Origin: Smithellaceae bacterium
Lineage (GTDB): Bacteria; Desulfobacterota; Syntrophia; Syntrophales; Smithellaceae
Direction: 5' to 3'
Length of the DNA stretch: 53,263 bases
NCBI GenBank assembly: GCA_028693285.1
Contig: JAQUVQ010000014.1
Location: 1 to 53,263, forward strand
This document shows positions 3,329 through 5,364 of this stretch, piece after piece. The notes below the pieces were generated by a model that saw only the letters and a program-made list of their open reading frames with translations, did not search any database and had not been told where the DNA came from. Position numbers and translations under genes: made by a program. How positions within the stretch are numbered: position 1 is the first letter of the stretch; each line of letters begins with the position of its first letter.

Positions 3329-4582
3329 TCACGTCTTCGTCTGCTCCCGGACAGCGGGCGTCTCTCTTCTCCCGTCGCCCATCTTTTCCATCAGGTGTGA
3401 TGCGCCCAGGTGCACAGTGTGCTTGCCGAATTTCTCCGCCAGTCCGTCGGCCGCGGCGTAAACGTCGCGGATTTTTCCCGCCTGCACCGGATCGTCGAAG
3501 AGCGAATACTGAATGCATTCATCGGCAATGAGGTCCGCAAGAATCACGCCCGTCGCCCGGTACAGTTCGTGCGGCCGCCGGCAGGCGTTAAAAAGTTTCC
3601 GGATGACGCCGGAAACCTCCAACGGGCAGGCGCAGGGGCGCGACAGAGCCGCTTCGCTCCCGGCCGTTTCGAAACGCCGGCTTTTCAGAAACACCACAAT
3701 TTTCCTCGGCGCGAGACCGTAGTGCCGGGCCTTGAGGCACGCCGACTCCAGATTGCGCGCAAGCTGCGCGAAAAGATAGTCGGCGTCGGAGGTCGGAGGA
3801 GAAAAGGTTTTGGTTTTGCTGATGGAGGCATAGGCGCTTTTTTCTTCGGACGTCACCGGATACACCGACTTGCCGCGCAGTTCCTGCCAGATTTCCACAC
3901 CCGGTTTGGTGAGCTTCTCCCGTACCGTTGTTTCCGGCATTTGCGCGAAGGCCAGCGCCGTGCGGATGCCGAGCTTGGCCAGATAGCTCGTCGTGGCCGG
4001 GCCGATTCCCCAGATGCTTCCCACCGGCAGGTCTTGCAGATAGCGGGCGATGTCCCGGCCGGCAATCACGGTTATGCCGGCGGGCTTCTGATGTTTGGAA
4101 GCCGTTTTGGCCAGAACCTTGGTGATGCTCAGCCCGGCCGACACGGTGATGCCCAGGTCCCGTTCGATTTCCGTTTTCATCCGCAGGGCGATGTCTTCGT
4201 AGGAAGCCTTCAGCGCCCGGCGCATGCCGGTGATGTCGGAAAACGCCTCGTCGATGGAATATTCCTCCACGTCGGGCGTGAAGCGGCGCATGACCGCAAA
4301 CATCCGCCGGGAAAAGAGGCTGTAGGTTTCGTAATCCGACGGCAGAATGATCAAGTCCGGACACATTTTGCGCGCATCGGAAAGCGGCACGCCGCGTTTG
4401 ACCCCCAGCCGCTTGGCCGCGTAGCTGGCGCAGGCGACGATTCCGCGCTCGCCGCCGGTAATGAGCGGCTTGCCCCGAAGCTCCGGGTGCACCGCCTCTT
4501 CACAGGACGTAAAAAAGGCGTCGCCGTCAATGTGGACAATGGCGCGCGGCCAGGAAACAAGAGAAAAAATTAAATCGGACAT
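3329..4582 (-). CDS. dinB: Y-family DNA polymerase (DinB/Pol IV-like)
   Basis: The protein has 417 residues. Catalytic metal ligands are visible as D19 and D21 in HIDGDAFF and D111/E112 in YSIDEAFSDITG; the helix-hairpin-helix thumb motif is DLPVGSIWGIGPATTSYL. The enzyme copies damaged DNA without proofreading. N-terminal motifs resemble DinB more than UmuC, but the C-terminal stretch (ATGVILADL, then QYSLFDD) also recalls UmuC, and the upstream gene on the same strand encodes a UmuD-like protein, so a Pol V-like role is possible. No clear ribosome-binding site precedes the ATG, and 158 bases of repeat-rich DNA separate it from umuD; co-transcription from the SOS promoter at 5336-5364 is inferred. 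Stops 19 bases from the converging acyltransferase. Confidence 0.85.
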   Translation of the reverse strand: MSDLIFSLVSWPRAIVHIDGDAFFTSCEEAVHPELRGKPLITGGERGIVACASYAAKRLGVKRGVPLSDARKMCPDLIILPSDYETYSLFSRRMFAVMRRFTPDVEEYSIDEAFSDITGMRRALKASYEDIALRMKTEIERDLGITVSAGLSITKVLAKTASKHQKPAGITVIAGRDIARYLQDLPVGSIWGIGPATTSYLAKLGIRTALAFAQMPETTVREKLTKPGVEIWQELRGKSVYPVTSEEKSAYASISKTKTFSPPTSDADYLFAQLARNLESACLKARHYGLAPRKIVVFLKSRRFETAGSEAALSRPCACPLEVSGVIRKLFNACRRPHELYRATGVILADLIADECIQYSLFDDPVQAGKIRDVYAAADGLAEKFGKHTVHLGASHLMEKMGDGRRETPAVREQTKT

Positions 4583-4740
4583 AAAAAATCAGACCATAGG
4601 TTAGGGGTCAGGGGTCAGGGACCATAGGTCATAGGTAATGGGTAATTGGGTAGTGGGTAAAAAGAGTGTCATGGTGAGCCAGTCGAACCATGACGGGGCA
4701 TCCACCATCCACCATTCACCATCCACCATCGCTTCTTGCC
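4583..4740. repeat. Repeat-rich spacer with a small palindrome between umuD and dinB
   Basis: This gap holds three kinds of simple repetition: GGGGTCA repeated at about 4603-4619, degenerate TAGGT and GGGTA units at 4622-4660, and CCATCCA/CCATTCA units at 4700-4730. At 4668-4694 the arms GTCATGGT and ACCATGAC form an 8-bp inverted repeat around an 11-base loop. Short palindromes of this sequence type occur as dispersed elements in several environmental bacterial genomes, as far as I recall. No coding frame here looks real. Confidence 0.55.
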
Positions 4741-5244
4741 TTATCGATGATACTTCCTCACCAGCGCCGTTACCACTCCCGCGATGCGCAGCTCCTCACG
4801 CGGGACCATCGGAGGATCTCCGGCGCCGGCCGTTTCCAGTGTGATGCGGGTTCCCTTTTTGCGGTAGTATTTTATCGTCCAGGCGCCGTCCACTTCCGCC
4901 AGAATGATATCCCCGTTTTTCGGCCGCCGGTTTTTTTCAATGATGACCCAGTCCTTGTCCATGATCCCGGCACCGGCCATGGAATCGCCCGTGACGGAGA
5001 GCAGAAACGAGGATTCCGGATGCGCCACCAGATACTCGTCAAAAGAAATATGACCGCGCAGCTCCTCTTCCGCGGGAGAAGGGAAGCCGGCGCAAACTTC
5101 CCCGCTGACCGGCAACCCCGCGATTTTGAAAAAAAGAGTCTGGCGGAAAGCGGCAGCATGCCTGCTCCGGTGTGATTTTAAGGTGATCCGTATGGGCGCG
5201 GCCTGAAGCCGGCCGCTGGACCGGTTGATAAAAATCTCAATCAT
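4741..5244 (-). CDS. umuD: UmuD-like S24 family self-cleaving protease
   Basis: The protein has 167 residues, starting at the ATG with AGGAAAG upstream. The C-terminal part is the LexA/UmuD serine-lysine dyad domain: S88 in VTGDSMAGAG and K125 in AWTIKYY. The cleavage region VCAGFPSPAEE places A52-G53 at the spot where E. coli UmuD has Cys-Gly. The distances (35 residues from cleavage Gly to Ser, 37 from Ser to Lys) equal those of E. coli UmuD. There is no helix-turn-helix, so it is not LexA. The processed form would assemble with a Y-family polymerase for mutagenic lesion bypass, which fits the dinB-like gene downstream. The N-terminal arm is about 28 residues longer than in E. coli. Controlled by the LexA-type operator at 5341-5358. 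Confidence 0.88.
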   Translation of the reverse strand: MIEIFINRSSGRLQAAPIRITLKSHRSRHAAAFRQTLFFKIAGLPVSGEVCAGFPSPAEEELRGHISFDEYLVAHPESSFLLSVTGDSMAGAGIMDKDWVIIEKNRRPKNGDIILAEVDGAWTIKYYRKKGTRITLETAGAGDPPMVPREELRIAGVVTALVRKYHR

Positions 5245-5335
5245 CTTCAATGCTTTCCTGTTTTTTTCTTCCCGGGGTGTAAGAGGGTGAAGCCGCTTCC
5301 ACGGCCGGGATTTCTTCGGATTTCTCCGGAAACTC

Positions 5336-5364
5336 TCTATATAGAACGTACGTTCTATTGTCAA
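5336..5364 (-). promoter_or_regulatory. SOS promoter of umuD with embedded LexA-type palindrome
   Basis: Read on the minus strand, -35 TTGACA (5364-5359), a 17-base spacer and -10 TATAGA (5341-5336) form a near-consensus sigma-70 promoter. The spacer and one edge base form a perfect 18-bp palindrome at 5341-5358 centred on GAACGTACGTTC. This fits the GAAC-N4-GTTC type of LexA box known from Gram-positive bacteria. A repressor bound there would cover both promoter elements. The predicted transcript starts about 85 bases before the umuD ATG. Confidence 0.8.

Follow-up and report, generated by a model that had tools for sequence, protein, structure and literature searches.

A putative LexA operator shared by lexA, the recA row and a umuD-like gene in a Smithellaceae genome, and the probable descent of the umuD-like gene from a lexA paralog

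The window, i.e., the whole stretch of 53,263 nucleotides analyzed here, is contig 29 of a 95-contig, 2.68 Mb genome. Among named records, those of Syntrophaceae, Smithella and Syntrophus come nearest to it, in keeping with the deltaproteobacterial host assumed in the original prediction. In E. coli, the umuDC genes are under LexA control. In the window, the following features lie side by side:

3329-4582, minus strand: Y-family polymerase gene of the dinB/Pol IV type, 417 aa (PF00817, 1.4e-46)
4583-4740, minus strand: intergenic gap of 158 nt that separates the two genes and contains short tandem repeats (7-base units)
4741-5244, minus strand: umuD-like gene, a 167-aa S24 auto-peptidase without a DNA-binding domain (PF00717, 1.8e-24)
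5245-5335, minus strand: leader; the frame of relatives starts here, right past the -10 hexamer (CCATGGAA), and here that ATG is lost (TTCCGGAG)
5336-5341, minus strand: -10 hexamer TATAGA, 17-nt spacing, one base in common with the box
5341-5358, no strand assigned: putative LexA operator ATAGAACGTACGTTCTAT, core GAAC-N4-GTTC, with no second match in the window; the other two genomic copies of its 16-mer stand at lexA and the recA row
5359-5364, minus strand: -35 hexamer TTGACA, from sequence reading; TTGAC is likewise found at 101 of 108 related lexA promoters

The palindrome was predicted to be perfect and to fill the spacer of a promoter, and both the sequence reading and shuffling bear this out, with exact coordinates. 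The palindrome at 5341-5358 is the sole match in the window at up to three mismatches, and 100 shuffles produced 0 matches. On the minus strand, the promoter reads TTGACA (5364-5359), a 17-nt spacer (5358-5342) and TATAGA (5341-5336). It should be noted that the bare 12-mer GAACNNNNGTTC alone is unremarkable (two occurrences in the window versus 0.95 expected). The description of this promoter as near-consensus is correct for the -35 hexamer (six of six positions) but too generous for the -10 hexamer (four of six); the promoter scanner, which demands T as the final -10 base, did not list it. The assignment of the core to the Gram-positive type agrees with the motif given in the accessible part of PMC3323433 for B. 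subtilis, M. tuberculosis and, by extension, Gram-positives.

The window protein keeps the Ser, the Lys and the Ala-Gly site (GDSM, WTIK, CAGFPSPAEEE) and is an S24 auto-protease without a DNA-binding domain beside a Y-family polymerase. A structure prediction for this protein alone was unusable (mean pLDDT 32.8). The label "UmuD-like" holds for the type of peptidase and for its place before the polymerase; by descent, however, the gene groups as a LexA paralog that is devoid of the DNA-binding domain. A tree of 68 S24 domains places the seven UmuDs of the genus (including that of the window) in one group (100/97), within a 12-row clade (100/99) shared with Syntrophales LexAs of two kinds, MKVKRT and GGAC. 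Common descent of the genus UmuDs with E. coli-type UmuD, apart from LexA, was not supported: their union was rejected (p = 0.0013). A single clade of all 18 rows without a DNA-binding domain was rejected as well (p = 7e-5), and a single loss of this domain common to the genus UmuDs and family f4 (L080/L081) was not rejected (p = 0.37). The tree is unrooted, and Syntrophales LexA and E. coli-type UmuD may or may not be sisters according to where the root lies; the deep forks are weak because S24 domains are short (128 columns). Long rows had disturbed an earlier tree; the tree of 68 domains therefore omits SynCanLexA_L082, SynCanLexA_L087, umuD_L314 and canLexA_L284 and uses newly trimmed versions of L313 and L310.

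An alternative is that the operator and repressor are the same, and the gene is an ordinary UmuD that was acquired and placed behind a LexA promoter. The absence of a DNA-binding domain and the location before a Y-family polymerase, as for E. coli umuD before umuC, are what this explanation would predict. However, the rejected union with E. coli-type UmuD, the position of the window gene inside Syntrophales LexA and a score under the cut-off of the UmuD model NF007621 (94.6 versus 110) make it improbable. The window protein may work like UmuD without being UmuD by descent.

The 5' part of the gene is consistent with its descent from a lexA paralog. The copies of the window and of G005 have lost the start codon right past the -10 hexamer, and the next in-frame ATG in the window is at 5244, approximately 90 nt past the -10 hexamer; the leader can be understood as the decayed 5' end of the paralog. 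In the eight genus copies that start right past the -10 hexamer, the part before the cleavage site (63-89 aa) is 26% identical (17-56%), versus 91% (86-95%) for the rest of the protein. Among 23 distinct intact lexA paralogs of the MKVKRT kind, all of 195 aa, both parts are 78% identical. No significant likeness to the winged helix is left in the decayed N-terminus of 12 copies (-1.6 to 3.3 bits). The Ser, Lys and Ala-Gly site are intact in the genus copies, and Lys is replaced by Arg in family f4 (G037, G056). The f4 proteins L080 and L081 are short UmuD-like S24 proteins with a deleted DNA-binding domain and Arg at the Lys position (WLLRYF); judging by this replacement, they are possibly unable to self-cut. 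S24 proteins without a DNA-binding domain are also found inside canonical LexA (L265, L267 and L268 in G106, G135 and G070; 96/85), where the winged helix has apparently been lost once more.

The neighborhood of lexA in related species points in the same direction. The polymerase is probably encoded by the second gene of the umuD-like operon; its best NCBIfam models are those of Pol IV, all under their cut-offs. We examined the 75 intact lexA loci with at least 600 nt of downstream sequence: a dinB homolog (64-77% identical to the window polymerase) lies within 350 nt behind lexA at 15 loci, is farther off at five, and is absent from the examined stretch at 55. Outside the order, a relative of the polymerase (52-57%) stands beside lexA at six of seven loci. 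In addition, G022 keeps the box and dinB with a dead paralog start, ACGAAAGTCAAGAGAACTTTG, where MKVKRTL would read. Several short 7-base tandem repeats (GGTCAGG, GGTAATG, CATCCAC) are located between the umuD-like gene and dinB (4592-4730). At L209 (contig C9 of G008), the box is followed by an apparent broken umuD, a short frame with a 36-aa match to the window UmuD; this species has a lexA2-dinB pair elsewhere.

The original prediction proposed a search for the same box in front of lexA and recA, and the lexA gene and the recA row of this genome do carry the identical box, with the GAAC-N4-GTTC core before both. The 16-mer TAGAACNNNNGTTCTA (TAGAAC-N4-GTTCTA) has exactly three sites in 2.68 Mb, each at an SOS promoter, versus none for the reversed control pattern. 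The second site (C95:46378) is directly before lexA in the layout TTGACA-17-TATAAG; the ATG follows 7 nt past the -10 hexamer, and by its position the lexA start would be leaderless or nearly so. The third site (C23:6648) overlaps the -10 hexamer before pgpA, the head of a pgpA-cinA-thpR-recA row (recA at C23:9205). A site with one mismatch (C39:17335) was dropped as a chance match inside an acyl-CoA dehydrogenase gene. Eight of the 11 places with two mismatches were inspected (C37:11097, C55:25631 and C76:923 were left out); thus, the number of three sites refers to exact matches only. Five of these places (C22, C44, C47, C52, C83) are inside long open frames, two (C55:29010, C89) resemble terminator stems, and one (C59) is intergenic without a promoter layout. 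Only two S24 peptidases were found in the genome, the host LexA and the window's UmuD.

We also studied the box across Syntrophales, using 137 LexA loci with a start codon (117 distinct proteins) and excluding partial, split, DNA-binding-less and canonical entries. In the 110 nt upstream, GAAC-N4-GTTC is present for 94 of the 117 LexAs, 13 have GGAC-N4-GTCC, one has GTAC-N4-GTAC and nine have none. Six of these nine have a box farther off, which brings the total to 114 of 117; the remaining three are L048 with 1 nt of upstream sequence, L021 with an N gap, and L064 with no box in 500 nt. The layout is also conserved: at the 101 promoters noted above, TTGAC plus one base is followed by the box, and the start codon is 12-14 nt past the box at 100 of 108 lexA loci. 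A set of 44 genomes contains 99 exact copies of the box (counted on one strand) versus 18 of the reversed pattern, and 41 of these genomes have the box. Seven genomes outside the order have full-length LexA members, and four of their seven loci carry a perfect GTGAAC-N4-GTTCAC at the same promoter position; L300 and L303 have an imperfect box (GTAAAC/GTTCAC), and the stretch of L297 excluded the promoter. Among the sites listed, the box of relatives precedes lexA, pgpA(-cinA-recA), umuD-dinB or dinB, and also a dCTP-deaminase-like gene (L170).

The box varies together with the recognition helix of LexA. All 13 LexAs with the A-A helix have the GGAC-N4-GTCC box, whereas the 98 LexAs with the V-V helix have GAAC-N4-GTTC (89) or no box within 110 nt (nine); six LexAs have other helices. 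When the helix columns are excluded from the alignment, the resulting tree has two operator changes and unites the LexAs with GGAC in one clade. The helix-box pairs are therefore not independent, and the covariation rests on two changes. G021, G029 and G032 each have both a GAAC-type and a GGAC-type LexA. Separately, two species of the same genus (G019, G006) have a second LexA of the canonical type (L085, L084), and a different palindrome, CCTGATGTGCATCAGG, lies before the L085 copy.

Instead of LexA, some other dimeric regulator could recognize the box, or the S24 protein encoded in its own operon could do so, as UmuDAb does in Acinetobacter, since a palindrome could serve any dimer. This is very unlikely, given that the box precedes lexA itself and varies with the LexA helix, that SOS genes follow all three exact sites, and that the window S24 protein has no remaining winged helix. 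The palindrome is most likely the binding site of the host's own LexA, which is of a non-canonical kind characteristic of Syntrophales.

The host LexA (P0001, C95) passes the NCBIfam model TIGR00498 (126.6 versus a cut-off of 110.95) and has an S24 domain (PF00717, 101.6 bits) in which VAAG, GDSM and WTMK provide the Ala-Gly site, the Ser and the Lys. It falls under the cut-off of the Pfam LexA DNA-binding model PF01726 (14.8 versus 23.7); the search of the host genome with this model gave no match, whereas B. subtilis and Corynebacterium do match. PF01726 is the mark of canonical LexA, and we therefore call the host protein non-canonical. An N-terminal winged helix was nevertheless recognized through the predicted structure of a relative, L094 (43 sequences, mean pLDDT 77.2, residues 70-98 unreliable), in which a three-helix N-terminal domain is joined to an S24 domain. 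The best Foldseek matches of this model are LexAs over the full length, namely, LexA of T. maritima and E. coli LexA in complex with DNA. VIA-align comparisons gave Z = 15.9 (rmsd 6.7, 106 aligned) and 15.7 (rmsd 2.2, 98 aligned) with E. coli UmuD', and Z = 14.3 (rmsd 6.7, 164 aligned) with T. maritima LexA. In the S24 tree, canonical LexA (including that of E. coli) is split from Syntrophales-type LexA and UmuD (100/99). A single clade of canonical and non-canonical LexA was rejected (p = 2.3e-5), although the nested DNA-binding-less rows were placed outside it, which eases rejection. As regards a possible phage origin, 140 phage records match P0001, all at less than 60% identity, and seven viral contigs match at 34-45%.

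The Gram-positive core does not make this a Gram-positive LexA. Acquisition of lexA from a Gram-positive donor together with the box, which the shared core (PMC3323433, accessible part) and the S-x-S-x-V pattern common to the helices might suggest, was rejected on the PF01726 profile results and the S24 tree and is highly improbable: the LexAs of Nocardia, Streptomyces and Vescimonas group with canonical LexA (100/99.9), away from the host LexA, and their clade with it was rejected (p = 0.033; three Gram-positive rows only). These three control loci were used for the tree and not as a box control; their available stretch showed no GAAC-N4-GTTC.

Overall, we consider it likely that the palindrome is an operator of the host LexA, and that the umuD-like gene is a former lexA paralog that has lost its winged helix and now serves as a polymerase helper. 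Weighing against this reading are the two changes behind the covariation, the weak deep forks, the 55 loci without a dinB homolog, the lack of winged-helix likeness in the decayed N-terminus and the score of the repressor under the PF01726 cut-off. A LexA dimer bound in the promoter spacer would keep RNA polymerase out and repress the umuD-dinB transcript; upon DNA damage, RecA filaments would stimulate the self-cleavage of LexA, and umuD-dinB, lexA and the recA row would be derepressed. The ancestral state would have been an autoregulated lexA2-dinB operon, the paralog of which lost the winged helix while retaining the operator and the auto-protease. The present S24 protein would then be a RecA-triggered helper of the neighboring polymerase, controlled by the remaining LexA. 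Intact lexA-dinB, copies with a decayed N-terminus and the box-dinB arrangement of G022 suggest a transition from lexA2-dinB to umuD-dinB or, through loss of the whole gene, to box-dinB; we infer these steps from living species. The nesting in LexAs, the N-terminal decay and the lexA-dinB neighbors together make it probable that the palindrome originally was the operator of a second lexA and is now recognized by the LexA that remains.

Several known systems are similar in part. Canonical Gram-positive LexA (B. subtilis, M. tuberculosis), as far as the available descriptions go, shares with the host LexA the core box, the winged helix with an S24 domain, and control of lexA and recA; the host protein differs by the outer bases TA/TA of its box, a DNA-binding domain under the Pfam cut-off and another S24 branch. 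According to the accessible part of PMC8565304, non-canonical LexA of Bacteroidetes likewise functions as a LexA while being missed by the usual model, with duplication and motif divergence, but its N-terminus is CI-like and wingless, whereas the Syntrophales model predicts a LexA-like winged helix. The same text describes Acinetobacter UmuDAb, in which, comparably to the window gene, a UmuD-type S24 domain is linked with DNA binding; UmuDAb, however, has a DNA-binding domain and represses, whereas the window protein has none and a separate LexA is present. E. coli umuDC (NC_000913), for which the accessible part of PMC8565304 also gives LexA control, has, as in the window, a gene for an S24 auto-protease followed by one for a Y-family polymerase. 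Unlike E. coli UmuD, the window UmuD probably descends from Syntrophales LexA, and the window polymerase is 27% identical to E. coli UmuC and nearer to Pol IV models. The operators of Geobacter (GGTT-N10-AACC) and Bdellovibrio (TTAC-N3-GTAA), members of the same former class, are unrelated in sequence; that source, as far as it could be accessed, lists 17 LexA motifs in all and proposes a model of duplication followed by divergence.

The literature searched, mostly without subscription papers, contains no Syntrophales LexA box and no UmuD born from LexA. The LexA variant with a known core box is new, and the conversion of lexA to umuD is apparently unreported. For a largely uncultured order of anaerobes, these results define an SOS regulon whose box is simple; they also show that an operator of the Gram-positive type can go with a LexA from outside the Gram-positive lineage. 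The series of intact lexA-dinB, decayed N-terminus, moved start codon and box-dinB relic represents a possible natural route from repressor to helper. The two helix-operator states within one genome (G021, G029, G032) fit the duplication-then-divergence model in the accessible text of PMC8565304. It is conceivable, although we advance this only tentatively, that UmuD-type helpers arise repeatedly from autoregulated repressor-polymerase operons, when the winged helix is lost, the operator is kept and the remaining LexA reads it. The window would be a recent case of such a birth, and a protein of G164 hints that classical UmuD may have arisen likewise. This protein (L272/L307) combines a helix domain at the N-terminus with a UmuD-type S24 domain and branches at the base of the group of E. 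coli-type UmuDs; a GAGTAC-N4-GTACTC palindrome lies upstream and a polymerase downstream.

LexA-type boxes were also found at mobile elements. In G010, G025 and G006 (L194, L204, L218), they lie in TTGACA promoters before IS91-type (Y2) transposase genes, and the SOS response may induce these elements in Syntrophales; for ISCR transposases in E. coli, SOS control is reported in the accessible part of PMC13393415. At L207 (G014), and probably at L193 (G001), a box is located 18 nt ahead of a 396-codon frame, and the L207 frame is TnpB/IS605 OrfB-like.
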